A program made the position numbers and the translations under genes. Positions 4,695 through 19,421 of a stretch of 62,855 nucleotides of DNA are shown in pieces (the first letter of the stretch is position 1; every line of letters begins with the position of its first letter). This stretch comes from a virus, in IMG/VR virus record IMGVR_UViG_3300009537_000008, positions 1 through 62,855 of that record. One strand, written 5' to 3'. The notes under the pieces were generated by a model. It was not told the DNA's origin, did not search any database, and saw only the letters and a list, made by a program, of their open reading frames with translations.

Positions 4695-4964
4695 TCACAG
4701 CTTTTTCAGCAATAAATTCACTAATTCAGTGTTGGTAAGGGTAAATTCTAACTCATTTTTACTATAGAATCCTGGGTGGATCTTTTGCTTAAGCAATTTT
4801 AATATTTCATTCGACACTCCAACCTTATTAATTTTATCTAAATCCTTAGTTGTACTGGGGATAAATTTAATAGTAAAGGAACTATAGCTACCATCACTGG
4901 TTATAGTATAGTTAATTCCGTTAAGATTAATCTTTTCTTCAATTAATAATTGTTTCAGTTTCAT
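4695..4964 (-). CDS. small head-targeted protein, unknown function
   Basis: About 89 residues. The ATG at 4964 is chosen over one at 4976 because it overlaps the stop of the preceding gene as ATGA and gives the N-terminus MKLKQLLIEE. That is a short form of the helix ending in LxE that recurs in this block (LIE followed by E). The rest is a small beta-rich domain with no family that I recognise. Head packaging with gp21 cleavage after LIE is inferred from the N-terminus and location, not shown. Confidence 0.6.
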   Translation of the reverse strand: MKLKQLLIEEKINLNGINYTITSDGSYSSFTIKFIPSTTKDLDKINKVGVSNEILKLLKQKIHPGFYSKNELEFTLTNTELVNLLLKKL

Positions 4965-5188
4965 ACTCCATACCAATGATCACGAATATGTCCAGCAGTA
5001 ACTTTTGATGGGAATCTATTCTGGTTTGTTGTTATCATTTTATCATATTTTCCATCAGAGAATGCTTTAAGAAGCTTATCTCCTGGGTCTAATGCAATCA
5101 AAGCTGTTAGAACATCTTCTTTATATTCTTCCTTAAGTAAGGACAAGATTTGTTCTCTTATAATCTGTTTTAATTCTGATTTTTTCAT
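4961..5188 (-). CDS. small internal head protein candidate with MKKSEL leader
   Basis: 75 residues starting MKKSELKQIIREQILSLLKE, the shared leader of this module, with a predicted cleavage after LLKE. The remaining 55 residues (helical, ending HIRDHWYGV) match nothing I know. It overlaps both neighbours by 4 nt. By analogy with T4 IPI-IPIII, the leader would direct it into the prohead core and the mature part would be injected with DNA. Confidence 0.65.
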   Translation of the reverse strand: MKKSELKQIIREQILSLLKEEYKEDVLTALIALDPGDKLLKAFSDGKYDKMITTNQNRFPSKVTAGHIRDHWYGV

Positions 5189-5709
5189 TTTATTTTTTTG
5201 GCTAATAAATTAAATTTAGTAACAACATTCTTTGCGGCGGTTAATGCTTTGTTTTCAATTGTTTTCATTGCAGAGCGAACTTCACCTTTATCTTTTACAA
5301 GGATAGTTTCACTCTTACCTTCAACGTTGAAGTCTATTGCCGCACTGCCACCTTTGGCTATATAATCATTCATAAATGATCCTGGGTAGATGTATATTGA
5401 CTGAGTAGATTTTAATGCCTTAAATAAATCATTAAGAATAACTTTATTTTCAGGTGTTCTCAGTCTATCATTAAAAGATAGCTTCCAGTCATATTTTAGT
5501 TCATGCCCCTTATTATATGATTCAATATACGATTTCACATTCTCTATTACTCCTAATGATTCTGCTTGCTTAACCATTGGGTCAAGAATTTTCTTCACTT
5601 TGAATAATATTGCTTTAGACGCATCGCCAACGATTAGAGTTTCATTCTCTTCTTTAAGAAGTTTAATTATTTCTTCTCTTATGATATGTTTTAATTCTGA
5701 TTTTTTCAT
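5185..5709 (-). CDS. internal head protein candidate with MKKSEL leader
   Basis: 174 residues starting MKKSELKHIIREEIIKLLKE, then ENETLIVGDASKA... The predicted cleavage is after LKE20. The mature part is a mixed alpha/beta domain with no recognised motif, ending in a basic helix (KNVVTKFNLLAKKIK). It overlaps the next gene by 4 nt and lies in the run of small head genes between scaffold and protease. Confidence 0.65.
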   Translation of the reverse strand: MKKSELKHIIREEIIKLLKEENETLIVGDASKAILFKVKKILDPMVKQAESLGVIENVKSYIESYNKGHELKYDWKLSFNDRLRTPENKVILNDLFKALKSTQSIYIYPGSFMNDYIAKGGSAAIDFNVEGKSETILVKDKGEVRSAMKTIENKALTAAKNVVTKFNLLAKKIK

Positions 5710-5721
5710 TTGTTTATTTGT

Positions 5722-6009
5722 TTAGCGATTTAACGCATTAAATATATAAGTGGCGGCAAACTGTTTTAATTCTATTTTATTCATCTGCCCAATCTTACCA
5801 TATACTGCACGGCGAGCTAATTCTGATATACCTTGTGGAATGGCTTTATTTTTTTCCAAAGATTCTTCCCATTTTACTATAGCAATTAATGGTTTATACT
5901 TGTATAATAATCTATATAATAATTCTGCCATTTTATTAGATATGTCTCTATTATTCTCCGCTAAGATTAGCTCTTCTTTTATAATTTGTTTTAGCTCTGA
6001 TTTTTTCAT
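5722..6009 (-). CDS. small internal head protein candidate with MKKSEL leader
   Basis: 95 residues starting MKKSELKQIIKEELILAENN, with a likely cleavage after LAE17. The mature part is helical (AELLYRLLYKYKPLIAIVKWEE...) and ends in a Met/Lys/Asn-rich helix, MNKIELKQFAATYIFNALNR. The function is unknown. The start overlaps the end of the preceding gene by 4 nt. Confidence 0.65.
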   Translation of the reverse strand: MKKSELKQIIKEELILAENNRDISNKMAELLYRLLYKYKPLIAIVKWEESLEKNKAIPQGISELARRAVYGKIGQMNKIELKQFAATYIFNALNR

Positions 6010-6512
6010 GATATATAAAATGTTAATTCGTAGTTGCCACTATCCATACCGTATACTTGCATCTGTAGATTTTTTTTACTGGGCTTACCATTTTTTATTA
6101 GTTCTATGGACGCTTTAAATGTTTTACCAACCCCAGGTTTACCCCGCCCTAGCGTAATTTGTTGAGCCCAATCGTCTTCATCTATTTCATACCCCTTTTT
6201 CTTCGTATAGGATTCGGCATATTGTACGGCAGCAGTGAAGGTTTTGAAATAAGTTTCTTCCCTTTCTTTAATTAATGGTGCCAATTTAATCATTTTATTT
6301 TCATTAACTTCTCCAATTAACTTTTTATAAATAGAAGTTGGAGCTGGGTGTTTCCGGTGCAACTGAGTGACAATCCCTCTCCAGGCTAAATCTCTTTTAT
6401 CCTTATCTATAGGAGGGGTTTGTTTCTTTAGCCAATAAACAAAAGATAGAATCTCATCTGGGGATTCTAACCACCATTTGGCCATATTAGGGAAATCTTC
6501 TTGTAGGTTCAT
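6006..6512 (-). CDS. head-module protein of unknown function
   Basis: 168 residues. It lacks the MKKSEL start (MNLQEDFPNMAKWWLESPDEI) but carries an internal LIKE-R site near residue 86. The C-terminal half (YFKTFTAAVQYAESY...GYEIDEDDW...ITLGRGKPGVGKTFKASIEL) looks like a small globular domain that ends in beta strands (LQMQVYGMDSGNYELTFYIS). The GKPGVGKT string fits a Walker A pattern, but without other P-loop features I do not read it as an ATPase. It overlaps both neighbours by 4 nt, so it is co-translated with the internal-protein set. Confidence 0.55.
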   Translation of the reverse strand: MNLQEDFPNMAKWWLESPDEILSFVYWLKKQTPPIDKDKRDLAWRGIVTQLHRKHPAPTSIYKKLIGEVNENKMIKLAPLIKEREETYFKTFTAAVQYAESYTKKKGYEIDEDDWAQQITLGRGKPGVGKTFKASIELIKNGKPSKKNLQMQVYGMDSGNYELTFYIS

Positions 6513-6826
6513 TTATTTACTTCTATCGCTCTTAATTGTGCCAATGCTTTTTCTTTTGTAGTGTGTGTTCCTAACACTTTACCTTTTTTTGAATATACAA
6601 GCCATTTATTACCAACTTTACGAATGACTTCTGTTAGTAAGTTTGCTAATTTTATTATTGATTCATTCTTCTTATATAATTTTGGTATCCTTATATTCAT
6701 TATAGATCTACCATTAACAGTAATAGCTCCATACTCATCCATCCCGATATCTTTAACAACAACTTTTTTGTTTTTAAACTTACCAGTTAGAATAGTATCT
6801 CCAACTTCTATATCTAATTCAATCAT
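6509..6826 (-). CDS. head-module protein, SH3-like N-terminus, unknown function
   Basis: 105 residues. The first 45 look like a small beta-barrel (DIEVGDTILTGKFKNKKVVVKDIG). The middle has PKLYKKNESIIKLANLLTEVIRKVGNKW, with an internal LLTE that could be a protease site. The end, VYSKKGKVLGTHTTKEKALAQLRAIE, is a short motif often seen in small phage proteins of unknown role. It follows the 6830-7507 gene after a 3-nt gap. Confidence 0.55.
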   Translation of the reverse strand: MIELDIEVGDTILTGKFKNKKVVVKDIGMDEYGAITVNGRSIMNIRIPKLYKKNESIIKLANLLTEVIRKVGNKWLVYSKKGKVLGTHTTKEKALAQLRAIEVNK

Positions 6827-6829
6827 AAA

Positions 6830-7507
6830 TTAATCTAATGATCCATATTTACCACTACTTATTTCTTTACCAAATTGCTGCGCCCCATCCGATATTAATG
6901 CTATAGCAATATATGTTGGATCATTGACCCAGATATAAAATTTAACACTTTCGTTTCTTTTTTTATAAAACGCGTCTAATTCTTTTAATCCCTTTATAGC
7001 ATCATTATAAGACCCCCGCTTACTACTGGACCCAGTATAAGATGTTGGATATGATATTTTAGCATTAGGATGTTGCTGGTATTGTTTTTTAAAAATAGGT
7101 AAAAATTGATTAAAAGGTAGAGCTTTAGATTTTTCAAATCCAGGGGCTTCGGATAAAATTTTGATTAACTCTTCCCGAATCATTTTTTGTAAATCTGTTT
7201 TTTTCATTTTATGATCTAATTTAATATTCATCCACGCACTACCCTCTTTTGGTCTTATTTTTATTTTAGACCAACCGGTATGAGGTTCGGTAGTAATTTT
7301 GTATCTCTTTCCTAATACTTTGCTTATAATGGATATTATTGGTAAAGTCCTGGCGGTCCAAACATCAATATCCATGCTATTCTTACCAATTGTATTTGTA
7401 GTAAATTTAATCCCAGATTTGCGCACTAATGGGACTACCTGGTTTGAAATGGAGGCAAGTTCCAGTAATGTTTCTTTAATTAAAGATTGTAATTCTGAGA
7501 TTAACAT
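6830..7507 (-). CDS. fused double internal-head-protein with two leader-like peptides
   Basis: 225 residues that look like two head-targeted proteins joined in frame. Residues 1-15 (MLISELQSLIKETLL) are a variant of the shared leader. At about residue 101 a second, almost canonical leader begins (MKKTDLQKMIREELIKILSE-A). The first part is an alpha/beta domain (VWTARTLPIISIISKVLGKRYKITTEPHTGWSKIKIRPKEG). The second, from about residue 121, contains SYPTSYTGSSSKRGSYNDAIKGLKELDAFYKKR. Protease cleavage after LSE would split the product. Alternatively the second unit is translated from its own internal ATG at about 7207. Confidence 0.6.
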   Translation of the reverse strand: MLISELQSLIKETLLELASISNQVVPLVRKSGIKFTTNTIGKNSMDIDVWTARTLPIISIISKVLGKRYKITTEPHTGWSKIKIRPKEGSAWMNIKLDHKMKKTDLQKMIREELIKILSEAPGFEKSKALPFNQFLPIFKKQYQQHPNAKISYPTSYTGSSSKRGSYNDAIKGLKELDAFYKKRNESVKFYIWVNDPTYIAIALISDGAQQFGKEISSGKYGSLD

Positions 7508-7722
7508 TATTGCTCTTCTAAATTATTTAGTTGTTGATTTCTAATTGCTTTTTGTTTTTTCAACCGTTTCTCAACACTTGGTTTATTAAATTGCATTCTG
7601 TTTTGTAATGCTCTTACAATCCCAGCTTTTTTAAATTTCTTTTTTAATATACCCAACGCCTGCTCAATATTACCATCTTTAACAATAACACCAATGGTAG
7701 TAATTTTATTTTCTTTTTTCAT
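7507..7722 (-). CDS. rpsU: phage-encoded ribosomal protein bS21
   Basis: 71 residues. The core NIEQALGILKKKFKKAGIV, then QNRMQFNKPSVEKRLKKQKA, follows bS21 from end to end: the N-terminal acidic VKDG/NIE segment, the helix with KFKKAG, the R..F.KPS turn and the basic second helix. The KPSV..KR version is that of Bacteroidota. In these bacteria bS21 sits at the mRNA exit of the 30S subunit and helps hide the anti-Shine-Dalgarno sequence. A phage copy could replace host bS21 and change which mRNAs are translated; that is inference. It lies one base downstream of the prohead protease gene inside the late head operon, with no leader peptide. Confidence 0.88.
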   Translation of the reverse strand: MKKENKITTIGVIVKDGNIEQALGILKKKFKKAGIVRALQNRMQFNKPSVEKRLKKQKAIRNQQLNNLEEQ

Positions 7723-7723
7723 A

Positions 7724-8320
7724 TTATTTGCAAGATAAAATATCTGTTATTATTTGATTAGCTCTTTGATATTGATTAGGTAATAAACTCATTAGGCTAT
7801 TAGCGGATTCGTGTAAGAATGCTCCGTGGGTAGATGGATTGGAAACTAAGTCGAATGCCACGAGCTCAAAATCATCCTGAACTTCTACTGCGCCTTCTCC
7901 TAATGGTTTTACAGAACCTAATCCTCTTGAAGATATTCCCAATGATACACCAGATTTAAATAATTCTCTGGCAATCTTACCTGCAGGAGTATCTAATATT
8001 TCTAATTTACCCATTAAATTATCACCATCCCAATTCATTTCTATAATTATATGTGACACATTGGAAAGGTTCACAATAGGAGATTCAGGATGATCTAATT
8101 CACCCATGGCGCGTCGTGTACCAACTAAATTCTTTTGATATTTTTCTACTTCTCTGAGTAGAATATTTTTAGGATAATTTCTTTTATTTTGGTTTAATGA
8201 ATTGGCTCTTTGAATTACACCTGATACAATTAACTTTCCACCATTGCGCTCAATAGATTCATTGATAGCCTCAGCGGAGAAATTAAATGGTATATAGTCA
8301 ACTAATATATTCTTAGTCAT
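7724..8320 (-). CDS. gp21: prohead core protease (gp21-like)
   Basis: 198 residues. This maturation protease digests the scaffold and removes N-terminal leaders from capsid and internal proteins at (L/I)xE sites. The expected serine-protease landmarks are present: MGELDHPES with His77, and LGISSRGLG with Ser130/Ser131, in a domain with the strand order of T4 gp21 (NYP...REVEKY, then SHIIIEMNWDGDNLMGKLEILDTPAG). Its place among the leader-bearing small genes fits its role in processing them. The start overlaps the previous gene by 8 nt. Confidence 0.9.
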   Translation of the reverse strand: MTKNILVDYIPFNFSAEAINESIERNGGKLIVSGVIQRANSLNQNKRNYPKNILLREVEKYQKNLVGTRRAMGELDHPESPIVNLSNVSHIIIEMNWDGDNLMGKLEILDTPAGKIARELFKSGVSLGISSRGLGSVKPLGEGAVEVQDDFELVAFDLVSNPSTHGAFLHESANSLMSLLPNQYQRANQIITDILSCK

Positions 8321-8540
8321 TTTTTTTATGTTTTTTTCTATAAGTTATTATCTTTATGACAACTTTATCTGCATTTAATATTCCTGGATTAATACCCAAT
8401 ACTCTGGCTAATAATCTATATTTAAATTTTAATGTTTTATTCCAAAAATAAGCTAACTCATATTTAGACACAGTGTATTCTTCAGAAAATATTGTTTCCT
8501 TTATACTGAATAAAGATTTTATCCAAGTACCTACACCCAT
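8313..8540 (-). CDS. small basic head-module protein with second-type leader
   Basis: 75 residues starting MGVGTWIKSLFSIKE-T. This resembles the start of the 680-residue enzyme at 16165-18207 (MSLGTWLASQLLIE-S): both have GTW followed by a hydrophobic helix ending in IxE. The mature part is basic and aromatic, ending ITYRKKHKKND. A GGAAGGAG purine tract lies directly against the ATG, too close to be an ideal Shine-Dalgarno. Function unknown. Confidence 0.55.
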   Translation of the reverse strand: MGVGTWIKSLFSIKETIFSEEYTVSKYELAYFWNKTLKFKYRLLARVLGINPGILNADKVVIKIITYRKKHKKND

Positions 8541-8551
8541 CTCCTTCCATA

Positions 8552-8947
8552 TTAATCGTTTATTTTATAGTATTGATTTAATCCTGATCCTATGGCATCG
8601 TAAGCGTGTTCTAATTTTTGTTGAAGAACATACATTTCACCAGCGGCCTTTTCAAACAATTTATAATTTTCATTAATTGCTTTCATTGACTTTTCTACCA
8701 TACCTCTATCAAACCAATCATCAGTTTCTTGTAAGGCTAATTTACTGGCCCCCTCGATCATCTTAGCCATGTTTTCTGTTACCTGTTTAATATTACTGGT
8801 TCTGGAAATTGCTTCCCCAATTTTATTATATTCAGATACCATTTTTAATACAGCTTTTTTTTCTTCTGTAGTTAAGGGAACAACCTCTTCTTCTTTTTTC
8901 ACAAAAGAATTTTCCGATAAACGTTTAACATATTTTGATAGTTTCAT
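8552..8947 (-). CDS. head-module protein with LSE leader, helical
   Basis: 131 residues starting MKLSKYVKRLSE-N, again a short basic helix ending in LxE. The remainder is mostly helical with heptad-like spacing (EKKAVLKMVSEYNKIGEAISR, then EKSMKAINENYKLFEKAAGEMYVLQQKLEHAYDAIG), suggesting a coiled-coil or helical bundle. Function unknown; probable component of the prohead core or an internal protein. Confidence 0.6.
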   Translation of the reverse strand: MKLSKYVKRLSENSFVKKEEEVVPLTTEEKKAVLKMVSEYNKIGEAISRTSNIKQVTENMAKMIEGASKLALQETDDWFDRGMVEKSMKAINENYKLFEKAAGEMYVLQQKLEHAYDAIGSGLNQYYKIND

Positions 8948-8948
8948 A

Positions 8949-9716
8949 TTATTCAGATAATCTTTTAATTTTATTAGACATTGCTATAAACCTTTCGCTT
9001 ATTTTATTAAGATTTTTATGGGTACGCTTCCAATAAGAACCTGATTGAACTCCCATCTCAGTTTTTAATCTTATATTGCGGTCAATGGACTTTTCCATTT
9101 CATTAACCATATTTTTTACTTCGCCAATGGCTTTGTTTATTTTTTGTTGGGGTGTTAAAGATTCATCCTTTTTATAAGTGTTATAATTCTCAGTCATTTC
9201 TTTTCTTTCGACCACACTATCCAATTCAGCTTGTATATCTGAAACACCGTGTTTTGTTTTTAATAGTTTTGCAATTGCAATTGCGGCCAACCTATAATCA
9301 TTTTTTGGAAAAGTATAAGCTCCATTAGAATAGCGCTTATATGCAGTAGCAGCATCACTATACATTCTTAAAAGATGTGTTTTATCGATAATAGGTAATA
9401 CAACGAATGGCCCAAAAATACTTATCTCATTAATAGGCTTTTTAGATTCTGACAATTTGGCTAATACCCTTCTCATTATTCTTTCTGCCATACCACCTGG
9501 TACCGTAGAGGGTTCTACTTCCGAATCTTTCTTTTTCTTTTTTACTTTTTTGTATCCGAATACTTCCAAATCAGCGGAAGACCCATCAGCATCTTCGTCT
9601 GTATTAAACGCGTTTGGAGTTTCAAATCCAGCAACATCTCCTGTAGTCGACATTTCTTTTTGGAGAGCTTTTTTAAGTTCTTCCTTAATGATTTGTTTAA
9701 GTTCTGATTTTTTCAT
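8949..9716 (-). CDS. large internal head protein candidate with MKKSEL leader
   Basis: 255 residues starting MKKSELKQIIKEELKKALQKE. An acidic/low-complexity stretch follows, then KKVKKKKKDSEVE and a second possible protease site in RVLAKLSE-S near residue 92. The rest (ISIFGPFVVLPIIDKTHLLRMYSDAATAYKRYSNG...FPKNDYRLAAIAIAKLLK) is alpha-helical and ends ...SNKIKRLSE. It could yield a propeptide plus a mature domain starting SKKPINEISIFG. The 48 nt ending at its start codon are identical to those of the gene at 18209-18442. Confidence 0.65.
   Translation of the reverse strand: MKKSELKQIIKEELKKALQKEMSTTGDVAGFETPNAFNTDEDADGSSADLEVFGYKKVKKKKKDSEVEPSTVPGGMAERIMRRVLAKLSESKKPINEISIFGPFVVLPIIDKTHLLRMYSDAATAYKRYSNGAYTFPKNDYRLAAIAIAKLLKTKHGVSDIQAELDSVVERKEMTENYNTYKKDESLTPQQKINKAIGEVKNMVNEMEKSIDRNIRLKTEMGVQSGSYWKRTHKNLNKISERFIAMSNKIKRLSE
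9669..9716 (-). repeat. direct repeat: 5' module of MKKSEL genes (copy 1)
   Basis: This 48-nt stretch encodes MKKSELKQIIKEELKK. It is identical base for base to 18395-18442, and its last 41 nt are identical to 18677-18717. Other family members encode a similar peptide with diverged codons. Confidence 0.85.
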
Positions 9717-10174
9717 TATATATTTTTATTAACAAATAATTTTTTAAGGTTGGAAGTATAATCCTTAAATTTTCTAGACGCTATATCCATATCCGCCTGA
9801 GCAGAGTCGACTTGATCTTCGTACTTCTTTAATGATAATCTAATAGCACTCATTTTATCATATAACTTATTTAATTTGTCACCGTATTGTTGGGCAACTT
9901 TACCATCTAAATTTTTAATTACATCTGGGTCATTCTCCATATCATTGACGGTATCATTAATATCGGATTGCACTTCTTTATTTTTTACTCTATAAGAATC
10001 GACGGCCGCATTATATTGATCTACCTTAGCCCAGTATTTATCAGTTGCAGTGGATAATTTTTTACGTAAATCCTTTTCTATACTGAATACCGCTGCGGAT
10101 GAAAATCTATCGGCTTCAATTAGAATCCGGTTTAGTTCTTCCTTAATGAGTTGGATTAATTCTGATTTTTTCAT
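9716..10174 (-). CDS. internal head protein candidate with MKKSEL leader, coiled coil
   Basis: 152 residues starting MKKSELIQLIKEELNRILIE-A, with a predicted cut after LIE20. The mature part is almost entirely helical (SIEKDLRKKLSTATDKYWAKVDQYNAAVDSY..., MSAIRLSLKKYEDQVDSAQADMDIASRKF) and likely forms a coiled coil. Start and stop overlap neighbours by one base (TAATG arrangement), indicating translational coupling. Confidence 0.65.
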   Translation of the reverse strand: MKKSELIQLIKEELNRILIEADRFSSAAVFSIEKDLRKKLSTATDKYWAKVDQYNAAVDSYRVKNKEVQSDINDTVNDMENDPDVIKNLDGKVAQQYGDKLNKLYDKMSAIRLSLKKYEDQVDSAQADMDIASRKFKDYTSNLKKLFVNKNI

Positions 10175-10554
10175 TATTCTATTACTTTTCCATTATGAAC
10201 TTTGTATCTTATAGTGTAACCATTAGAACCCCGTGGATGTGTCCAACTGAAATCTAATGTAATGTGCAGCGCCCCATCCCGGTGGTTTATACCAATTCGA
10301 GTATCAACAACAACTGTAGTAAATATTGATTGTAGCCCACCTTTATCTTTAATGGATGCTGTCGGAAGATCCAACCAAGAACCATTGGCTGGAATCTTAT
10401 CAATGCTGGGCAGATTAATAGGTAGTTTATTAGCGGCTAGCCATCTTAATAAAGTAGTGTAATCCTTTGGATTGACATCTACTTTACCACCATCTTCTTT
10501 AAGAGCTTTCCTTAGTTCTTCTTTTACAAGTTGTTGTAGTTCGGATTTTTTCAT
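10174..10554 (-). CDS. internal head protein candidate with MKKSEL leader
   Basis: 126 residues starting MKKSELQQLVKEELRKALKE-D. The mature part is a compact domain (DYTTLLRWLAANKLPINLPSIDKIPANGSWLDLPT...) ending in beta strands (GALHITLDFSWTHPRGSNGYTIRYKVHNGKVIE). It matches no family I can name. It overlaps the upstream gene by 4 nt. Confidence 0.65.
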   Translation of the reverse strand: MKKSELQQLVKEELRKALKEDGGKVDVNPKDYTTLLRWLAANKLPINLPSIDKIPANGSWLDLPTASIKDKGGLQSIFTTVVVDTRIGINHRDGALHITLDFSWTHPRGSNGYTIRYKVHNGKVIE

Positions 10555-11454: not shown

Positions 11455-13104
11455 TTACTTCTGACTTAATGGACTACCACCTTTAAATCTATGCCCGAAG
11501 GGTGATTTAGGTTGTTGTAACGGCTTATCATCTACCATATCTTTAGTTCCTGGGTACCAACCCGCGGCACCTGGATTGTCGTCTTCCGTAGAATTATCAT
11601 TTTCATCCTCTGGGCTTTGATCTCCAATTGGATCTGGATCTGGTGATCTGGGATCTGCTGGATCGGAACCTTCCTCATTTATCTTTGTTAATCTATAATT
11701 GCGTTTAGATGTTTCAACCAATTTTGCTCTTTCATCTTCAATCTCATCTTCATTCATATCAAATACGTTTTCATATATCCAATCATCAGAAAATAATTTT
11801 GAGTCCTGTAAATCTTTAGCTAATTCTATTTGGCTTTTCCATAACTCTACTTTTTGCTGTTTATGGACTGTAGATGGATTAGTTAATTCTAAATCAAATT
11901 CAATTAATTCTTCATCTTCAAACCCTTGGGCCGCCAAATGTATTACTCCTATTTTATATAATTCAGAAACAACAATTCTTTGTAAGCGTTCTATAGTTCT
12001 GGTAAATCTAATATCTTCAGCAGCCAAAGTAGCTTTCGCTCCGTATGCGTCTGAGTAATTTAAAAATGCTTTTGGTACTTGTAACGCAGCAAACAACTTA
12101 TCTCTTAAATATTCTATATCATTAATATTATCAAATGCTAATCCATTTAAATTAGTGACCTGAGAAGTTGATAATCCACCTCTGGTTGGAATATAAATAT
12201 CTTCTAACATATTCTCCAAATTAAATTTCAAATTGTAATCCCCAGTATTAGGATCTACAAATGGAATTTTCTTCATTCTGGAAATGGTTTGCTCCATATG
12301 AGTGTCAATTTCATTAGGAGGTAAATTGCCAACTTCAATATTGAATATTCTTTTTTCAGGTGAGCGCATTATTCTATGGATAAGCATTGCATCCTCCATA
12401 AGATTTAATTGCTTCCAGACTCTCCTCGCCCCTTCCAACATACTCTTACCGTAAGGTAAAAAGTTTGTATCTGATAATAATCTAAAATGAGCTACTTCAT
12501 AATTTTCTAATAATGCTCGACCAGCAATTGTTTCGTTTTTAAATTGAACTAAATGGGGGTTATCAGGATCTTCTCCTTCTACCCTTTCTGTTTCATAAGC
12601 TGACAATGGAGTTGCAAAAGTTACACCGAATTCTTCTGAAATAGTTAATAAAAGAAAATGATCACCATACTTAACTAAATTTCTAATCCACGGCCAGAGA
12701 TTAAATTCAATATTTAAAACATCATAGTATAAATTATTTAAAATATCTTTAACATCTTCATTATCTGTTTTAATTTGAAGGACATCATTATATTCATCTC
12801 GGGTTGTACATTCATCTGATAGGACATTTAATGCCGTTGAGATAATACTATCAGTATCCATTATTTCATAGTCACCATATAATAATCTCCTGTTGGCTAT
12901 AAATGATGCTTGCTGGCCAACCATTGAATACCCACTCATTCCACCAGTTTTGAAGACTTTATTAAATCTATCAATAGGTCTACTAGACTGAGACTGCCGA
13001 CTGTCTAAATCTACCAGTTTGAGTTTCTTACCTCCCTTATTTCTTACAATAACAGAGGTAGAGAATAGTTTTTTAAGTCTACTAAAAAAGGATTTATCAG
13101 CCAT
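11455..13104 (-). CDS. gp20: portal vertex protein (gp20-like)
   Basis: 549 residues, typical of T4-type portals. Twelve copies form the DNA entry ring and nucleate head assembly. Recognisable blocks are DYEIMDTDSIISTALNVLSDECTTRDEYN (about residues 77-105), LFNLWPWIRNLVKYGDHFLLL-like text near 135-155, LMEDAMLIHRIMRSPEKRIFNIEVGNLPP (about 231-260) and DKLFAALQVPKAFLNY (about 335-350). The C-terminus is a Pro/Asp-rich tail (ADPRSPDPDPIGDQSPEDE). The gene sits directly after the terminase gene, as in T4. Confidence 0.93.
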   Translation of the reverse strand: MADKSFFSRLKKLFSTSVIVRNKGGKKLKLVDLDSRQSQSSRPIDRFNKVFKTGGMSGYSMVGQQASFIANRRLLYGDYEIMDTDSIISTALNVLSDECTTRDEYNDVLQIKTDNEDVKDILNNLYYDVLNIEFNLWPWIRNLVKYGDHFLLLTISEEFGVTFATPLSAYETERVEGEDPDNPHLVQFKNETIAGRALLENYEVAHFRLLSDTNFLPYGKSMLEGARRVWKQLNLMEDAMLIHRIMRSPEKRIFNIEVGNLPPNEIDTHMEQTISRMKKIPFVDPNTGDYNLKFNLENMLEDIYIPTRGGLSTSQVTNLNGLAFDNINDIEYLRDKLFAALQVPKAFLNYSDAYGAKATLAAEDIRFTRTIERLQRIVVSELYKIGVIHLAAQGFEDEELIEFDLELTNPSTVHKQQKVELWKSQIELAKDLQDSKLFSDDWIYENVFDMNEDEIEDERAKLVETSKRNYRLTKINEEGSDPADPRSPDPDPIGDQSPEDENDNSTEDDNPGAAGWYPGTKDMVDDKPLQQPKSPFGHRFKGGSPLSQK

Positions 13105-13141
13105 TCATAATATTTTATTATAATTATATATCTTTAGTATT

Positions 13142-14752
13142 TCATAGTAACCAGGTTAAGTCTTCTGACTCACCCTGCCCACCAGGCATCTTCCAAGTTT
13201 CTGATCCAGGTCCTTGCCTCTGGCCATTAGAATTGTATATTTGGTTATTCCTTTGAACAGAAATATTCTTTAATATAGATCTTTGTAAATCCATACCATC
13301 AGACCTTAATTTAATGGCAGTGTCCCTTGTCCATAATCCAATGCTATATGATAATACTAAGTCATCATTATAACTTTGTCTGGCTTGCGCTTTTCCATTA
13401 TGCCAAATAAATACAAATAATTCGTCTATTAATCTTTTAGATTTTATTAGGACTTCTTTTTCTCTAGTATATTCACAAAGTTTTTCAATTAGCAATGGTC
13501 TAGTTTTGCTTGAATTAGTAAACCCAGGAGTCATATCCATTTGCAATTTCAAATCTAATCCTTTATATAATTGTGTATGTTGATCTTGGAATTGATTTGT
13601 CTTTTGAGAATAATAAATATTTTGATAACCTCTATCAATTACAGTTTGAATAACCGCCCAACCAATACTGGCGTTTTCAATTACTAATAGTGCATTATTA
13701 TATTCAGTGGCAGTATTAACTAACATATGACCTAAATCTGTCGTGGTGATATGAGCTTTAAATTCAGCTATTTGTCTTAAGGAGTCTATTTCTAAAATAT
13801 GGAATGCAGAATAGTCAGTAGCATCTCCCCTTGCTACGTCAACCGAAATCATGTATGATTTAGTATAATCTGGTTTCTCCCATACCCATAAACCATTTTC
13901 AGGGCCACGTTTCTCAATAGGTTCTTCTACAATATTATCTAAATACCATTTTAGTATGCTGGGATGAACTACAGTGTTTCCAGATGATATAAAATCAGCA
14001 TCACATTCTGCCGCAGCGCCGTCAGCCCCTAATAGCTCTGTTTGTTTATCCCGCCAAGATTGATCTCGATCTGGGTGTAAGTTCCATTTAAGTTTTATGG
14101 TATTAAAATCATTATCACCTGCTTCAGAGTCGACCCATGTTTTGTGAAACCAATTACCAACTCCATTGGGGGTTGATAATACAATTGCTTCTCCTCCTGT
14201 TGCTAAGGTTTGTTGTGACGCTATCCAAATGGATTCAATATTAGAAATAAAGGCCGCCTCATCAATCACAAGCAAACTTAGGGACTCTGATCGGCCGGCG
14301 CTCTCTGTTGCTGCAATGGCTTTAATTTGTGAACCATTAGGAAAGCGCAATGACATCTTATTATCTTCAATAGTTTTAGATCTAATCCAGCCAGGTAACA
14401 TATCATGCATCACCCTAACTTTGGTAACTAAATTCTTAGCAACCATTTGATTAATGGCAATTACTAATACATTTTTATCTTCATGAAATAACATTAACCA
14501 CAAAGCGTACCCAGCAACTAATGTAGATATACCTAATTGTCGGGATTTTAGCACCATATTATATCGGTGCTTCTTAAATTGAACTAATGTTTTATCCTGG
14601 AAAGGATATAATTTAAATAAAATCTTTCCTTTTTGTGGGTGTTGGATGTAACAGTAATTTTTCATAAAGTGCACTGGGTCAGTAGCACACTTTAAGTATT
14701 CATCTGATAAGAATTGTTTTATCTGAGCTGTTGTCAGCTTTGGAGTAGACAT
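13142..14752 (-). CDS. gp17: terminase large subunit (gp17-like)
   Basis: 536 residues. This packaging motor couples ATP hydrolysis to DNA translocation and cuts concatemers. The Walker A-like SRQLGIST is at 70-77 and Walker B plus catalytic Glu LLVIDEAAF at 161-169. The coupling motif region is STPNGVGNWF (193-202). The C-terminal RNase H-fold nuclease has its acidic residues in ISVDVARGDATDYS (Asp305, Asp310, Asp313), LVIENAS (Glu359) and NDDLVLSYS (Asp463/464). It lies upstream of the portal gene with a 37-nt gap. No small terminase (gp16) could be assigned nearby. Confidence 0.95.
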   Translation of the reverse strand: MSTPKLTTAQIKQFLSDEYLKCATDPVHFMKNYCYIQHPQKGKILFKLYPFQDKTLVQFKKHRYNMVLKSRQLGISTLVAGYALWLMLFHEDKNVLVIAINQMVAKNLVTKVRVMHDMLPGWIRSKTIEDNKMSLRFPNGSQIKAIAATESAGRSESLSLLVIDEAAFISNIESIWIASQQTLATGGEAIVLSTPNGVGNWFHKTWVDSEAGDNDFNTIKLKWNLHPDRDQSWRDKQTELLGADGAAAECDADFISSGNTVVHPSILKWYLDNIVEEPIEKRGPENGLWVWEKPDYTKSYMISVDVARGDATDYSAFHILEIDSLRQIAEFKAHITTTDLGHMLVNTATEYNNALLVIENASIGWAVIQTVIDRGYQNIYYSQKTNQFQDQHTQLYKGLDLKLQMDMTPGFTNSSKTRPLLIEKLCEYTREKEVLIKSKRLIDELFVFIWHNGKAQARQSYNDDLVLSYSIGLWTRDTAIKLRSDGMDLQRSILKNISVQRNNQIYNSNGQRQGPGSETWKMPGGQGESEDLTWLL

Positions 14753-14753
14753 A

Positions 14754-15158: not shown

Positions 15159-15541
15159 TGTATTCTACCCTCATCTTCTGCAAACTTCTTAAGAAATTTA
15201 ACTGCGCTATCTACTGGTGGATCTGGTTTAGGAGTAACTCTATTATTAATTATCTTATATTTAATTACTCCTGATTTTGATTTTGAATCATATAAATCCT
15301 GTGCTAATTGCTCGGCGATAATTGTTAGACTATCAATTTTATGTTCATTGACTGTTATAGTACCATTTAATCCATTAACAATGTCATTATAATAAGTATA
15401 ATTGCTATCATGGTTAGATTTACAATTCTTAAGATTATGATAAGTTCCAAATAAACCTAACGATAATAATAAAATTATAGCTCCCATAATATACTCCCTA
15501 TACTTAAATGTTATTTTCAGTATGTTCGTTATCTTTTCCAT
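15155..15541 (-). CDS. single-pass membrane protein, possible inner-membrane spanin
   Basis: 128 residues. One transmembrane segment (YIMGAIILLLSLGLFGTY, about 17-34) follows a short basic N-terminus. The outside part is a helix/coil (INEHKIDSLTIIAEQLAQDLYDSK-like) followed by a Pro-rich stretch (VTPKPDPPVD) and a terminal helix. This layout is that of i-spanins (Rz type). It is translationally coupled to the signal-peptide protein at 14754-15158, which would be the partner. No sequence motif proves this. Confidence 0.5.
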   Translation of the reverse strand: MEKITNILKITFKYREYIMGAIILLLSLGLFGTYHNLKNCKSNHDSNYTYYNDIVNGLNGTITVNEHKIDSLTIIAEQLAQDLYDSKSKSGVIKYKIINNRVTPKPDPPVDSAVKFLKKFAEDEGRIQ

Positions 15542-16130
15542 GCGCTTCTAATTTTTTACCAAATATTTTTTGTTCAATATCTTCCATAATAGGATCAATC
15601 AATGCACTTAGCTCTTCATAAGATTGTGGGTCTTCCCAAAAGTCTTCAATCTTCCCATTACCATCGACAAACTTTTGTTTTAAAGAATCTCTCTTACCTT
15701 CTTCAATCATTTGTTTAAAATCTTTGAACCAGGCTTCCATATTATTTTGAACCTTATTCCTTTCATATTCATTATATGTACCATCGATCTTCATCTGATG
15801 TTCCATTGCGATTACACATTCAAAACACATTTTATGAATAAACCACATTTTTTTATCCAATTTCTTTTTCATTGGATTATTACATTTCGGGCAGGAATGA
15901 GGAAGATAAATATGGTCTGCGACGGCTTCATTAATGACATCTAATAATTTGGAAGTTTTCCATTTAATACCATTTCTTATTTCCCATTCTTTCCCATCAG
16001 AGTCTGTCCAAACTTCCCCTTCTTTTCTTTCGACTTTGTCAGGAGTCCATCCATGCGATCTTTTTTGGTGATTACCACTTATAACATTTTGTAGATACGC
16101 AATACGTTTGCCAGGTTGACTGTTTTTCAT
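15504..16130 (-). CDS. zinc-finger protein of unknown function
   Basis: 208 residues. The N-terminus is basic (KNSQPGKRIAYLQNVISGNHQKRSHGWTPD). A treble-clef-like zinc site is formed by CPKCNNPMKKK...CFECV (two CxxC pairs about 25 residues apart, residues 79-107). The C-terminal part is acidic and helical. It overlaps the downstream membrane gene by 38 nt. The position upstream of the terminase genes and the possible DNA-binding finger make a packaging or head role conceivable; I cannot identify the family. Confidence 0.55.
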   Translation of the reverse strand: MKNSQPGKRIAYLQNVISGNHQKRSHGWTPDKVERKEGEVWTDSDGKEWEIRNGIKWKTSKLLDVINEAVADHIYLPHSCPKCNNPMKKKLDKKMWFIHKMCFECVIAMEHQMKIDGTYNEYERNKVQNNMEAWFKDFKQMIEEGKRDSLKQKFVDGNGKIEDFWEDPQSYEELSALIDPIMEDIEQKIFGKKLEAHGKDNEHTENNI

Positions 16131-16148
16131 AGACTATTTCTTTAATAA

Positions 16149-16156
16149 TAAATATT
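16149..16156 (-). promoter_or_regulatory. candidate late promoter box (AATATTTATTA)
   Basis: On the minus strand AATATTTA followed by TTA lies 18 nt before the ATG at 16130. It resembles boxes at similar distances before the genes starting at 42078, 48974 and 53397, and has no TTTG at 20 nt upstream. It is a candidate site for the gp55-like late sigma factor. Confidence 0.35.
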
Positions 16157-16164
16157 GTTAATTT

Positions 16165-18207
16165 TTAATTTCCAAATTTTAAAATACCCAATAAAGCATT
16201 GACACTAGCAAAGGCCCCTGTAAATTTATAAATCTTTCCTTTATACATAAATACTATTCCCTCAGTTGGCACTATGGCATCAAACCCACCAATAGCATTT
16301 AATCTGGTTAATTGTGTTTTAAGTTTTTCAATCTTAGTTATGTCATTGGACGATTCTAATGTTTTAATATCTGCTTCTACAGACTGCCGTATTCTATGAG
16401 CAGCAGAAGATGGATTAACAGATAATACATCACTGACATTTTTTAATATCTCTGCACCAACGTGTAAGAATAATATATCAAATGGCTGCATATTAATTTT
16501 TACCTGTCCAGCATGATCTTTTTTATCAAATGTTGTCGCCCATTCTAAAAATTCTGTATTGTCTATTTCTTTTTTCATATTAGCTATTGAATAGCTCTTA
16601 TCAAAAAATGCCCATCTGTTAACTAATGAACCTAATACATGATTTGGTATCGGATAGTTATTTTTTTGTGCCTGTTTAGAAATAAAATCCGCCCACCAGG
16701 CCTGATGATATTTAGATACTTTATCTGAGGACTTTAAATTAAATTTAGATTGTAATTGTTTTAACTTATTTTGGAACATTGCTTGCTTAGAAGAAAAATC
16801 TGTTACTGGAGATAATTTAACAAACGATGGCCCTTGTATGGTGAATTTATTTTGAATATGCTGATTAACCTTTTGAATTAATTTAGCTAATGTGCTGGCA
16901 TCTTTTGGATTAGCATCTACTACATTCCCTGCATCATCATACTCAGTGCTACCATGAAATATTAATAAACTGGTATCGTATGGAATTACATTCTGTGTGT
17001 CTGGCCATATAATTTCTGTATGCATAAATTTATAACCATTTTTAAATATAGAATCTTTATCTTTTTGTGATAATGATTTAACTGCATTTTGTAAGTCTTG
17101 CACTGCAAATACAAACGCATCTGTTAGTGCCCCTCTGCCACTAAATTGTTGTAACACCCCATTAACATCCATCGCACCAGCTCCACCATTTTTGTAATGT
17201 CCTTTATTTCTGGCAGCAATTAATTTACCATCTTTCCAGGAGAATGAAATGGCCTGACCATCCAATTTCTCACTAACATGTTTACTTAGTTTTCCTTGTA
17301 ATCCCAGCCCAATTATTTTACTTAAGTCTCCAAAAGTTAAATTCATATCATCAATCACATGGGCCATGTGTCCTGCAGCCCCACCTTCCGATAATATATT
17401 ACTCGGAGTCATATACTCAATAAACTTATTTCCTAATGCTATAACTCCTTCTGTTTTTATTTGCAATGAATTATTCCCAACAATATATTCAATAAGATCT
17501 TTACCCAATGATTTAGCAATTGAATTAGATGTTGCATTTATTTTTTTACTAGTTTTAAGAACATCATGTATATTAATTGTTTGCAAAAATGATTCCATCA
17601 TAGAATTTATTGCTCCCAATTTATTTACAATCATATCTTCTATTTTTTCATCTGATATACCAATAACTTGATTATAAAATTGATGTCTTTTTTTCCAGGA
17701 AATGTTATTATCACCAAGAATTTTTCTTATTTCGGTGCCACTCATTCCACCCCTCATTGTAGGAGCATTCATTGTATAAGCGTGAACTTTATAACCATAT
17801 TCTGCGGTACCTTTCCACGGTAAAAAGAATTTACCACCTAATCTTTCTTGATCTTTTTCGCCTACGATAAATACAACTGCAGTAGTTTCTGGGTCAAACT
17901 TAGCAACTATTTCTTCTGCTCTATATGGATTTTTAACATTAACAACATTTTTTATTCCGTGAGCCTTAGCAATTATTGACTTTTCTTTAAATGAAAAGGG
18001 GGATTTAGGTAAAGATACTACATTTGATGTGGCAAGAAAAGTATTATTAGCACCAAATATTCGTCGTACAAATTTATAAACATCTGCGTGATGCTTACCC
18101 ATTGGTTGAAATCTGCCTGGATAGATTGCTATAACTTTTTTAATCTTACCAGTAAGTACAGGAGATTCAATTAATAATTGACTGGCCAACCAGGTTCCTA
18201 ATGACAT
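16165..18207 (-). CDS. NMNAT-like nucleotidyltransferase fused to RNA-ligase-like domain, head-targeted
   Basis: 680 residues. Residues 1-14 (MSLGTWLASQLLIE-S) form a leader ending in a gp21-type LIE site. Residues 24-190 are a Rossmann nucleotidyltransferase: AIYPGRFQPMGKHHADV (28-43, the GxFxP..GHH signature) and MSGTEIRK (155-162, the SxTxxR signature). A second LSE-G site at 272-274 precedes GGAAGHMAH. Residues 300-665 read as a nucleotidyltransferase ligase: EKLDGQ (motif I, Lys314), AARNKG (Ia-like), FMHTEIIWPD (III-like), SLLIFHG (IIIa-like), TEGIVF (motif IV, Glu649) and KGKIYKF (motif V). Cleavage at LSE274 would separate the two enzymes. Substrates are unknown: NAD synthesis or RNA repair are the obvious options. 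The P-loop kinase gene nearby supports a repair set. Confidence 0.75.
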   Translation of the reverse strand: MSLGTWLASQLLIESPVLTGKIKKVIAIYPGRFQPMGKHHADVYKFVRRIFGANNTFLATSNVVSLPKSPFSFKEKSIIAKAHGIKNVVNVKNPYRAEEIVAKFDPETTAVVFIVGEKDQERLGGKFFLPWKGTAEYGYKVHAYTMNAPTMRGGMSGTEIRKILGDNNISWKKRHQFYNQVIGISDEKIEDMIVNKLGAINSMMESFLQTINIHDVLKTSKKINATSNSIAKSLGKDLIEYIVGNNSLQIKTEGVIALGNKFIEYMTPSNILSEGGAAGHMAHVIDDMNLTFGDLSKIIGLGLQGKLSKHVSEKLDGQAISFSWKDGKLIAARNKGHYKNGGAGAMDVNGVLQQFSGRGALTDAFVFAVQDLQNAVKSLSQKDKDSIFKNGYKFMHTEIIWPDTQNVIPYDTSLLIFHGSTEYDDAGNVVDANPKDASTLAKLIQKVNQHIQNKFTIQGPSFVKLSPVTDFSSKQAMFQNKLKQLQSKFNLKSSDKVSKYHQAWWADFISKQAQKNNYPIPNHVLGSLVNRWAFFDKSYSIANMKKEIDNTEFLEWATTFDKKDHAGQVKINMQPFDILFLHVGAEILKNVSDVLSVNPSSAAHRIRQSVEADIKTLESSNDITKIEKLKTQLTRLNAIGGFDAIVPTEGIVFMYKGKIYKFTGAFASVNALLGILKFGN

Positions 18208-18208
18208 A

Positions 18209-18442
18209 TTAATTGTGTTTGGTAATTTTCTTTTTAACCATATCTAACAAAGTAATAATTCCTTCCAATTTCTCCATATTCATATCTTTCCCAGAATTAA
18301 TTGAAGAAGATAGCGCCATTAGATTTTTGTGGGCCACAAATAAAAAATTTTTTCCTATTTTATCATCTAACCGATAATAAGTTTCATTAAGAGATTTTTT
18401 AAGTTCTTCCTTAATGATTTGTTTAAGTTCTGATTTTTTCAT
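18209..18442 (-). CDS. small internal head protein candidate with MKKSEL leader
   Basis: 77 residues starting MKKSELKQIIKEELKKSLNE-T, with a predicted cut after LNE20. The mature 57 residues are helical (KIGKNFLFVAHKNLMALSSSINSG...MEKLEGIITLLDMVKKKITKHN). The gene sits one base upstream of the large nucleotidyltransferase/ligase gene. The 48 nt ending at its ATG are identical to those of the gene at 8949-9716, implying recent duplication or recombination of the leader. Confidence 0.65.
   Translation of the reverse strand: MKKSELKQIIKEELKKSLNETYYRLDDKIGKNFLFVAHKNLMALSSSINSGKDMNMEKLEGIITLLDMVKKKITKHN
18395..18442 (-). repeat. direct repeat: 5' module of MKKSEL genes (copy 2)
   Basis: 48 nt identical to 9669-9716. 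The last 41 nt are also identical to 18677-18717, about 275 nt away. The repeat spans only the leader-coding part; the genes differ completely after it. Confidence 0.85.
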
Positions 18443-18444
18443 TA

Positions 18445-18717
18445 TTATTTATAACTTTTATGAGTTAATAGATACCGATGATTTTTAGAAACCCAAAAAT
18501 TGCCTTTTGAAGTATAAATAATCATTATCCCTTGCATCGGGTAGCTTTTAAAATCTTTAATGGTGGCACCAACCCACTTCCTGGGGTTGGTTACTACACC
18601 CCGAATTCGTGTTTGACTGTGCTCTGGATCGTCCTCCCAGTCGTAGTAATGAATGCCTTCAGAAAGCATGTTTTGTAGTTCTTCCTTAATGATTTGTTTA
18701 AGTTCTGATTTTTTCAT
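18445..18717 (-). CDS. small internal head protein candidate with MKKSEL leader
   Basis: 90 residues starting MKKSELKQIIKEELQNMLSE-G, with a predicted cut after LSE20. The mature 70 residues form a small basic beta-rich domain (RIRGVVTNPRKWVGATIKDFKSYPMQGIMIIYTSKGNFWVSKNHRYLL) that could bind nucleic acid; I do not recognise it. It lies between the kinase gene and another leader gene with 2-nt gaps. Confidence 0.65.
   Translation of the reverse strand: MKKSELKQIIKEELQNMLSEGIHYYDWEDDPEHSQTRIRGVVTNPRKWVGATIKDFKSYPMQGIMIIYTSKGNFWVSKNHRYLLTHKSYK
18677..18717 (-). repeat. direct repeat: 5' module of MKKSEL genes (copy 3)
   Basis: 41 nt identical to the ends of copies 1 (9676-9716) and 2 (18402-18442). 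It encodes MKKSELKQIIKEEL minus the last base context. Confidence 0.85.
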
Positions 18718-18719
18718 TT

Positions 18720-19421
18720 TTATATAGCTTTTTTAAGAGTTAACATATTTTGAATCCATCGTTGTCCTAATGGATTCTGTATTGGTCTATTAATAAATTT
18801 AGTCACGGCTTTGATAATATCAGGTTGGAGCGCCCCTGTATTGGAATTATCAATTTCTATAAAATTTTTTCCAAACATTTGTTTATATACTTTTATATTT
18901 TGTTGTGTTTGGTTCCATATATCAGTTACTACATTATCAGGTAATGATCTTTCTCTTTTTGCATTTCGAGCTAGCGCTATGTCAAGCGATGTATTAACAA
19001 AAATCATATAAGTATCATACCCCAATTCATCCAAATCATTTTTTCTCGACTGGATTTTACCAACAACTTCCCCAGTGCCATCATGTATGATACCTAATCT
19101 TCCATCTTTAAATTTTTCTAATTGATTTTTTGTAATGTCCTGAGCTTTAGATCTTATTAACATAGCCTGTTCAAATTCCTTTGGAGATAATTGATTTAAT
19201 TTTAAACTAATACCAGCTTTATTTAATAAGTGAGTAAAAGCGCCATCGGAATTACTTACCTTAAGGCCGGTGGGTGATAGGTTAATTTTAGCTCCGGCTA
19301 ATCCAAATAACTGACTGGCAACTACTGATTTACCACTTCCAGGCCCGCCAGCTAAAAACACACCAGTTAATATTCCCGGGTCATATACACCCTCTTTAAT
19401 TAATGAAGATAATTTATTCAT
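18720..19421 (-). CDS. P-loop kinase (zeta-toxin/polynucleotide-kinase-like), head-targeted
   Basis: 233 residues from the ATG at 19421 (an upstream in-frame ATG at 19439 adds six). The N-terminus MNKLSSLIKE-G matches the short leaders ending in LxE. The kinase domain follows at once: GVFLAGGPGSGKS (Walker A GGPGSGKS), a lid/substrate region with RNAKRERSLPDN, and HDGTGEVVGK as a probable catalytic strand. This is the fold of zeta toxins and 5'-OH polynucleotide kinases; Walker A is certain, the substrate is not. Its position beside the ligase-like enzyme suggests a repair pair, while a zeta-like activity on sugar nucleotides would suggest a toxin-like role in the infected cell. Confidence 0.72.
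   Translation of the reverse strand: MNKLSSLIKEGVYDPGILTGVFLAGGPGSGKSVVASQLFGLAGAKINLSPTGLKVSNSDGAFTHLLNKAGISLKLNQLSPKEFEQAMLIRSKAQDITKNQLEKFKDGRLGIIHDGTGEVVGKIQSRKNDLDELGYDTYMIFVNTSLDIALARNAKRERSLPDNVVTDIWNQTQQNIKVYKQMFGKNFIEIDNSNTGALQPDIIKAVTKFINRPIQNPLGQRWIQNMLTLKKAI

Follow-up and report, generated by a model that had tools for sequence, protein, structure and literature searches.

Why do about 16 otherwise unrelated proteins encoded in one stretch of viral DNA carry similar leader peptides? The question is raised by IMGVR_UViG_3300009537_000008 (IMG/VR), an uncultured T4-like virus of bacteria whose 62,855-nt sequence is the window analysed here. Injected phage proteins act before the expression of any phage gene, and to our knowledge they are hard to recognise outside the T-even phages because they share no sequence. 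We propose, with a probability of about 0.8, that the leaders are T4-type capsid-targeting sequences removed by the prohead protease gp21. The first-pass annotation had suggested head targeting and gp21-type cleavage for at least 15 proteins, a count that our survey bears out. The suggestion itself is well supported by comparison because the leader ends abruptly at LxE, the leader genes cluster in the head module, S77 proteases co-occur with them, homologous mature domains start after the glutamate of unrelated leaders, and published virion mass spectrometry (MS) of two related phages fits by homology or cluster.

Eight minus-strand ORFs in the range 4961-18717 start with MKKSEL..I(K/R)E (the long leaders of Table 1). 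All eight near-identical starts reported earlier are present, but the LxE end at residue 20 is lacking in two of them: the leader of 5722-6009 has ILAE at residue 18 and that of 8949-9716 reads ALQKE. The five shorter LxE leaders were recovered as described (4695-4964, 8552-8947, 8313-8540, 16165-18207 and 18720-19421, the last read from an internal ATG at 19421). Overlooked until now were a ninth copy of the long leader, inside 6830-7507, and internal sites in 6006-6512 and 6509-6826. A DNA pattern of the leader (≤2 mismatches) matched the window 6 times, against a mean of 0.00 over 100 dinucleotide shuffles. Minus-strand leader ORFs account for 9 of 25 in the head module versus 0 of 39 elsewhere (P=7e-5), the ninth being 6830-7507 (MLISEL). 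The leaders cluster around gp21 between the scaffold and kinase genes, as proposed, but they alternate with ordinary head genes (portal, terminase, protease and bS21) and are not on every gene.

Table 1. Head-region features of the window, with one example from a relative (last line, positions in that phage). A slash marks the predicted cut.
Feature	Positions	Strand	Leader or predicted cut	Basis or remark
Major capsid protein gp23	2018..3652	-	LENQARQLIRE/ATATG
Acidic scaffold/core protein, gp22-like	3672..4520	-	N-terminus LLKDAIADAKAVRETAL	Position and composition; precedes gp23
Short leader, 80-aa mature part	4695..4964	-	MKLKQLLIE/E	Sequence
Long leader, 55 aa	4961..5188	-	MKKSELKQIIREQILSLLKE/E	
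Long leader, 154-aa ORFan	5185..5709	-	MKKSELKHIIREEIIKLLKE/E
Long leader, ~77 aa	5722..6009	-	MKKSELKQIIKEELILAE/N
Two-part protein	6006..6512	-	MIKLAPLIKE/R	Internal site, residues 74-83
KOW-like N-terminal part and phrog_3684-type domain	6509..6826	-	IIKLANLLTE/V	Internal site
Two-cargo protein	6830..7507	-	LISELQSLIKE/T; MKKTDLQKMIREELIKILSE/A	N-terminal leader; internal long leader (Met at 7207)
bS21	7507-7722			Head-module gene without leader
Prohead protease gp21 (Peptidase S77)	7724..8320	-		PF03420 8.5e-30, phrog_207 4e-57
Leader, 60 aa	8313..8540	-	MGVGTWIKSLFSIKE/T	Sequence
Leader, mature domain widespread in relatives	8552..8947	-	MKLSKYVKRLSE/N
Long leader, conserved gp21-adjacent family	8949..9716	-	MKKSELKQIIKEELKKALQKE/MSTTG
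Long leader, helical 132 aa	9716..10174	-	MKKSELIQLIKEELNRILIE/A
Long leader, 106-aa ORFan	10174..10554	-	MKKSELQQLVKEELRKALKE/D
Portal protein gp20, without leader	11455..13104	-		Gene order
Terminase large subunit gp17, without leader	13142..14752	-		Gene order
Nucleotidyltransferase (cytidylyltransferase-like), C-terminal ligase-like half	16165..18207	-	MSLGTWLASQLLIE/S
Long leader, 57 aa	18209..18442	-	MKKSELKQIIKEELKKSLNE/T
Long leader, 70 aa	18445..18717	-	MKKSELKQIIKEELQNMLSE/G
P-loop kinase	18720..19421	-	MNKLSSLIKE/GVYDP
Flavobacterium phage immuto 2-6A	113188-113946		MKKSQLRQIIKEAL	Example at predicted LxE cut

The surrounding genes support a T4-like head module. The window gp23 is 62% identical to the major capsid protein (MCP) of Microcystis phage Mel-JY01 and 53% identical to that of Flavobacterium immuto, and its predicted cleavage site is kept in relatives. 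The protease carries the motifs GELDHPES and GISSRGLGS. The gp17 assignment follows from a gene order that matches Mel-JY01 and immuto, in both of which the terminase is annotated. The gp20 gene of the window, between the terminase and the conserved ~284-aa gene, likewise has the position of the annotated gp20 of immuto. The putative scaffold protein had no match in Pfam or PHROG, and its N-terminus is common in the equivalent gene of relatives.

The leader family could in principle be all that is still recognisable of a single gene family that was duplicated and then changed beyond recognition in its C-terminal parts, with no sorting role. Some 40 identical nucleotides are indeed common to the leaders of 8949, 18209 and 18445, and some contigs, G024 among them, contain tandem arrays of recognisable paralogs. 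However, pairwise comparison of residues 2-13 among the eight leaders revealed 76 synonymous and 58 non-synonymous codon differences, so the family does not stem from a single recent DNA duplication, and the peptide was retained while its codons changed. With 124 unrelated cargo clusters (below) and the same kinase domain placed behind different leaders as well as behind an internal site, duplication without sorting is scarcely credible.

Because the 20-aa leader is too short for BLAST (the bare peptide gave no tblastn match in annotated phages), we adopted DNA patterns for searches beyond the window. The 13-residue leader start occurs 71 times in IMG/VR and a scrambled pattern 0 times. Among 50 distinct matches, 34 have LxE precisely at residues 18-20 (later registers, mean 0.8), a clean test since the pattern constrained residues 1-13 only and left residues 18-20 free. 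No residue dominates from position 21 on in these 50, and a majority consensus built from 107 proteins whose cargoes are unrelated to one another reads MKKSELKQIIKEEIxxxLxE, followed by essentially nothing. In public contigs, 175 long-leader proteins fall into 124 cargo clusters, including 102 singletons. Glutamate occupies P1 in 121 of the 175, a count made partly circular by the profile selection of this set; roughly one in three long leaders lack it or have it in another register. Terminase N-termini (LKxIIREEYKKC) also scored as leader-like; we regarded this as chance resemblance and excluded them from the cargo count. The leader appears to be phage-specific: 58 leader stretches lie in viral contigs versus 1 in 84,980 prokaryote species, and that one sits on a phage-like contig. 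A search of open-licence PMC full text found no printed instance of these leader sequences.

Could the N-terminal helices share a role unrelated to the capsid, such as coiled-coil pairing or membrane or ribosome association? The leaders are charged helices, and a test of their amphipathicity was neither significant nor decisive. A similar charged helix opens a gene of the tail region (51314-51727) that has orthologs in relatives; helices of this kind are therefore not exclusive to the head module. Nevertheless, the leaders cluster at the head module, end sharply at LxE and co-occur with S77, and cargo domain boundaries fall exactly at the glutamate, which makes another role highly unlikely.

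The genomic context of the leader in other records is consistent with head targeting. The 484-kb giant phage LR756508 encodes 24 leader proteins, 19 of which lie within 141-220 kb (P=2e-11), a segment that contains the protease (156-158 kb) and a capsid gene (172 kb). The first-pass annotation expected the leader always to accompany a gp21-type protease. This held for 8 of the 9 leader records in which gp23 was matched. Across all leader records, many of them fragments, S77 was present in 12 of 50, more often than in randomly chosen records (2 of 35; P=0.02). Leader records without S77 are numerous and mostly short, and the single large one inspected at its end (G008) breaks off at the terminase. 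In the 12 records that contain S77, all 14 leader matches are on the S77 strand at a median distance of ~9.5 kb.

Domain boundaries in homologs also fall at the predicted cuts. In HTVC008M and Methylophilales phage Melnitz, the kinase homologs have G(V/L)YDP directly after the glutamate of unrelated leaders, and in Atu_ph07 the kinase domain is internal, following SEVTE/. The mature domain of 8552..8947 occurs in relatives behind other leaders (MKLKKILRE/N in L062) or an internal site, and the mature part of 4695..4964 resembles the segment after SSLLTE/A in L043. Beyond its site, 6006..6512 shares homology with the C-terminal region of a Melnitz protein. Residues 57-105 of 6509..6826 match phrog_3684 (9e-14), and counterparts of its N-terminal part are present in HTVC008M and also within relatives of the cytidylyltransferase. 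Furthermore, the alignment of 16165..18207 with its Mel-JY01 homolog (3e-128) begins at residue 23.

The most regular boundary is that of the gp21-adjacent core family (8949..9716), where 55 of 57 orthologs have the glutamate while the upstream sequence diverges; a core protein of a cultured relative has the predicted cut QEVLEE/MSTTG. Co-variation at P1' between MCP and core protein (P=2e-4) was set aside as confounded by phylogeny. The window member of this family, 8949-9716, is more likely a structural prohead core component. By extension, all leaders might tether structural, scaffold-like core parts (gp67/gp68-like), degraded or retained, with few or no injected effectors. Scaffold components are conserved, however, and most of the cargo consists of unrelated ORFans that differ between phages, while two cargo proteins are enzymes. 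We therefore consider a purely structural role unlikely, despite this conserved family with its boundary motif and the fact that several T4 gp21 substrates are core proteins (PMC9026906).

What the other cargo does can be surmised for a few proteins. The kinase matches Zeta_toxin (PF06414, 1.1e-5) and also AAA_33. For 16165..18207, the phrog_395 match is at E=0.011 for the protein itself and 2.4e-7 for the Mel-JY01 homolog, and a weak match (PF01653, E 0.063) underlies the ligase-like label. AlphaFold predicted an alpha/beta fold of medium confidence (pLDDT 71) for the mature part of 5185..5709, with no match in a fold search; the model for 10174..10554 was unusable, and neither mature domain had relatives in IMG/VR. 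Pfam, PADLOC and PHROG scans of the 107 cargo proteins gave few matches, including weak ones to Tox-ART-HYD1 and Lar below curated cut-offs. The cargo had earlier been cast as probable effectors directed at the host or at host defences. The T4 precedent of Ip1-3, which are anti-restriction proteins (PMC12373910), and two weak domain matches in relatives make effectors against host defences plausible, and some cargo likely serves host takeover or anti-defence, but 8949-9716 is probably a core protein, and enzymes account for two further members.

Under the capsid-targeting reading, the leader would dock each protein on the scaffold core late in infection, before the shell closes. The S77 protease gp21, encoded among the leader genes, would cut after the terminal LxE and the leader would depart, leaving the mature proteins in the head with the DNA for ejection into the next host. 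The long leader reads best as a doubled T4-type heptad (hydrophobic-x-x-hydrophobic-hydrophobic-x-E: LKQIIKE, E, IRKVLNE), whereas T4 IPII and IPIII have one (YQEFIAE). The pattern shared with T4 MKTYQEFIAE is too short to prove descent; in its general form the heptad is enriched in most genomes, but only 1.6-4.9-fold over internal windows. Phages would swap core proteins, enzymes and fast-evolving ORFans behind the leader, and ORFs with an internal leader would yield two cargo domains from a single cut. We give roughly even odds to a broader proposal, in which the doubled heptad is a general address tag across a large uncultured T4-like group and its giant relatives, with well over 100 unrelated and mostly ORFan cargo families, about 15-25 or more different injected proteins per phage, and internal-leader ORFs serving as packaged polyproteins split by one protease into two effectors.

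As a searchable tag, the leader yields 175 proteins that are candidates for packaging, among which 124 mature parts are mutually unrelated; most have no family match. If it is a packaging tag, the protein kit injected with the DNA, here and in relatives up to the 484-kb giant phage, would be much larger than T4's few. Confirmation in one isolate would make a large class of ORFans near phage head genes a defined set of candidates for injection, and T4-like heads could then be loaded with cargo by means of a new peptide.

Other phages offer partial parallels. In phiKZ and SPN3US, too, a gp21-related protease processes many head proteins, among them inner-body and ejection proteins, after a short motif ending in E, but their propeptides are mostly >100 residues, the phiKZ motif is S/A-x-E, and they are phiKZ-like, not T4-like (PMC9026906, PMC5694885). 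Leaders of 9-21 aa, a T4-like MCP, S77 and the gene order led us to reject a phiKZ-type inner-body class. Closer is Atu_ph07, for which the available part of the source reports 29 proteins detected by MS in virion cluster CDS 31-76 and contains no description of a leader (PMC6102473). Within that cluster, CDS 53-62 are tandem genes with a common short leader (M[KR]WxQL[NT]E), a virion link at cluster level; this leader differs in sequence, has a single heptad and precedes mostly one paralogous family. Scanning for the general heptad proved too permissive, with no distinction between the MS clusters and the remainder of the Atu_ph07 genome (13/173 vs 48/730, P=0.38), and the P=2e-4 of the leader-specific motif is post hoc because the motif was written after the array was seen. 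Cyanophage S-SM1 provides a second link, since its cytidylyltransferase T4-GC190 was detected in virions by MS (PMC3037559) and its gene starts MKKFSAFLNE/A. This nucleotidyltransferase family is related to 16165-18207 by profile only; the gene is separate from its DUF6267 partner and has a short T4-like leader.

The nearest system is T4 itself, whose capsid-targeting sequences are 10-19 aa long with targeting at residues 4 and 7 and processing at residues 8 and 10 (PMC9026906). T4 IPI-III and Alt likewise have a short N-terminal leader ending in (L/I)xE before unrelated mature parts, and an S77 protease; in the window, too, a shared leader precedes unrelated cargo, ends in (L/I)xE except in 8949-9716, and is accompanied by an S77 gene. 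T4 packages anti-restriction proteins and an ADP-ribosyltransferase (PMC9026906, PMC12373910), and the cargo families here differ from these. In contrast to T4, the long leader has ~20 aa and two heptads instead of one, the leader genes lie inside the head gene cluster, internal leaders are present, and the candidates number ~16 here and 24 in LR756508, compared with a handful in T4.

In the 62,855-base IMG/VR record, the major capsid protein shares 62% identity with its counterpart in Microcystis phage Mel-JY01, 53% with those of Flavobacterium phage immuto and of LR756508, a phage of 484 kb, and 37% with that of Rhodothermus phage RM378. This places the window in a T4-like phage distant from T4 itself. 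The head module keeps the T4 gene order (terminase, portal, gp21, scaffold-like protein, gp23), and its gp21 is an S77 protease (PF03420, 8.5e-30). As in the window, where a bS21 homolog adjoins gp21, an S21 gene is annotated close to the Mel-JY01 protease.

Window features discussed in the text (↓, predicted cut)
Position	Feature	Remarks
2018-3652	Major capsid protein (gp23)	
6830-7507	ORF holding a complete second leader	MKKTDLQKMIREELIKILSE↓A
7507-7722	bS21 ribosomal protein homolog	Adjoins gp21; PF01165, 3.7e-15
8949-9716	Likely structural core protein	gp21-adjacent family
16165-18207	Nucleotidyltransferase; its other half is possibly ligase-like	
18720-19421	P-loop kinase	Zeta_toxin/AAA_33; MNKLSSLIKE↓GVYDP
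27392-32638	1748-aa protein, mostly SGT/SGS repeats	Overlapped by long spurious ORFs on both strands
51314-51727	Tail-region gene starting with a charged leader-like helix	One similar gene each in immuto and leader records G008, G023 and G024

Eight window ORFs start with MKKSEL, further ORFs carry shorter leaders ending in LxE, and leader-like sites lie inside three ORFs. The leader DNA pattern (up to two mismatches) has six matches in the window versus none in shuffled sequences. Leader ORFs account for 9 of the 25 minus-strand ORFs in the head module but 0 of 39 elsewhere (P = 7e-5). The leader family on many head-module proteins, noticed in the first-pass annotation, is confirmed. Pairwise codon differences among the eight leaders at residues 2-13 (76 synonymous, 58 non-synonymous), together with the near-identical DNA of three of them, point to old conservation at the protein level and some recent exchange.

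The leader behaves as a discrete element across viruses. A pattern fixing residues 1-13 only found 71 matches on 58 stretches among all IMG/VR viral contigs, where its scrambled version found none. Of the 50 distinct matches, 34 have LxE at positions 18-20, compared with an average of 0.8 for registers 25-42; beyond position 20 no single residue prevails. A leader profile gathered 175 distinct proteins whose mature parts form 124 unrelated clusters (102 singletons); the consensus of 107 aligned cargo representatives reads MKKSELKQIIKEEIxxxLxE, followed by essentially nothing. Among 84,980 prokaryote genomes the pattern matched once, and the contig concerned is phage-like and bears two leader genes side by side.

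Leaders and gp21-type proteases tend to occur together in these largely fragmentary records: 12 of 50 leader records contain S77, compared with 2 of 35 records taken at random (P = 0.02), as do 8 of the 9 leader records that have a gp23 match; many leader records, most of them short, lack it. In the 12 records, every leader match lies on the S77 strand (median distance ~9.5 kb). Two large contigs rich in leaders lack S77, and both seem to be cut off close to the head module: G008 stops at the terminase, and near one end of G024 is a gene resembling one that lies ~5 kb from the terminase in G008. At a 12-bit threshold, 24 ORFs of LR756508 pass the profile (0.3 expected), 19 of them within 141-220 kb (P = 2e-11), an interval in which the protease gene lies at 156-158 kb and the capsid gene at 172 kb.

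The LR756508 gp21 (L005:4526-6250) is a 574-aa ORF with an insert of >300 aa, an apparent intein within the active site of the protease. The insert opens with a Cys directly behind GELDHPD, a catalytic-His-like motif, and its last residues, ...WTGN, precede a Ser. Separately, in-frame TGA codons inside the S77 and gp23 matches of G012 (the record behind L097) and in a weak gp23 match of G044 (behind L132) suggest that TGA is recoded in some leader phages.

Domain boundaries also coincide with the predicted cut. In kinase homologs, the mature part begins at the same point behind unrelated leaders (MIPFILKE↓GLYDP in HTVC008M, MKTFAELQE↓GVYDP in Melnitz); in Agrobacterium phage Atu_ph07 the kinase domain is internal, following SEVTE↓. 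The gp21-adjacent family has the boundary E in 55 of 57 orthologs while all upstream sequence diverges, and the capsid protein site LENQ(A/Y)xQ(L/I)(L/I/V)xE↓ is conserved. Post-cut residues of the capsid and core proteins are alike within one phage, a likeness confounded by phylogeny, as if both N-termini docked at one shared place. In one phage, for example, the predicted cuts are E↓GSATTAG in the 2018-3652 ortholog and E↓GSTTAG in the 8949-9716 ortholog.

Published virion data are available for related phages. The cyanophage S-SM1 cytidylyltransferase T4-GC190 was found in virions (PMC3037559). The gene encoding it begins MKKFSAFLNE↓A and is a member of phrog_395, a family also matched, at 2.4e-7, by the Mel-JY01 homolog of the window nucleotidyltransferase. 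Atu_ph07 carries a tandem array of ten genes that start M[KR]WxQL[NT]E (L247:39484-49507). The array includes the kinase homolog (CDS 53) and lies within the CDS 31-76 cluster, from which 29 proteins were detected in virions (PMC6102473). A general heptad scan of Atu_ph07 did not reproduce the virion-cluster enrichment. We infer the S-SM1 link to the window leaders by homology and the Atu_ph07 link at the cluster level. Most mature parts of the tandem genes contain a YRG motif resembling ADP-ribosyltransferases.

Beyond the tabulated enzymes and core protein, the window cargo is mostly ORFans. Cargo in relatives matches the ADP-ribosyltransferase Tox-ART-HYD1 and the restriction-alleviation protein Lar weakly, both below curated cut-offs. 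The type IV restriction enzymes inhibited by T4 Ip1, Ip2 and Ip3 differ, and the leader is all that these three proteins have in common (PMC12373910). This precedent and the weak matches make an anti-defence role reasonable for many cargo proteins, and the proposed effector reading is plausible. Head targeting and gp21 cleavage, also predicted in the first-pass annotation, are well supported by comparison (S77 co-occurrence, head-module clustering and boundaries at E).

T4 leaders have 10-19 residues, with residues 4 and 7 directing core targeting and residues 8 and 10 gp21 processing (PMC9026906). The T4 genome encodes the heptads YQEFIAE (IPII, IPIII), INELLRE (gp24) and FGSFLTE (gp23 site), a hydrophobic-x-x-hydrophobic-hydrophobic-x-E pattern. 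It also fits the starts of T4 gp2 (76061-76885; MAIFQIINES) and 61.1 (NC_000866 18966-19130; MKTFKEFIKED), which makes 61.1 a candidate for a packaged protein that has gone unrecognised. Whereas the T4 capsid-targeting sequence (CTS) has the heptad once, the long leader has it twice (LKQIIKE-E-IRKVLNE), and we read it as a doubled CTS with too few residues to prove descent from that of T4. Multiple cut sites are reported in phiKZ propeptides (PMC9026906), so the second E of the long leader could serve as a reserve cleavage site. The leader set reads as a variant of the T4 CTS/internal-protein system that is distributed among T4-like phages, both uncultured and giant. It stands out from the T4 system in having a doubled leader, internal leaders and so large a set of cargo.
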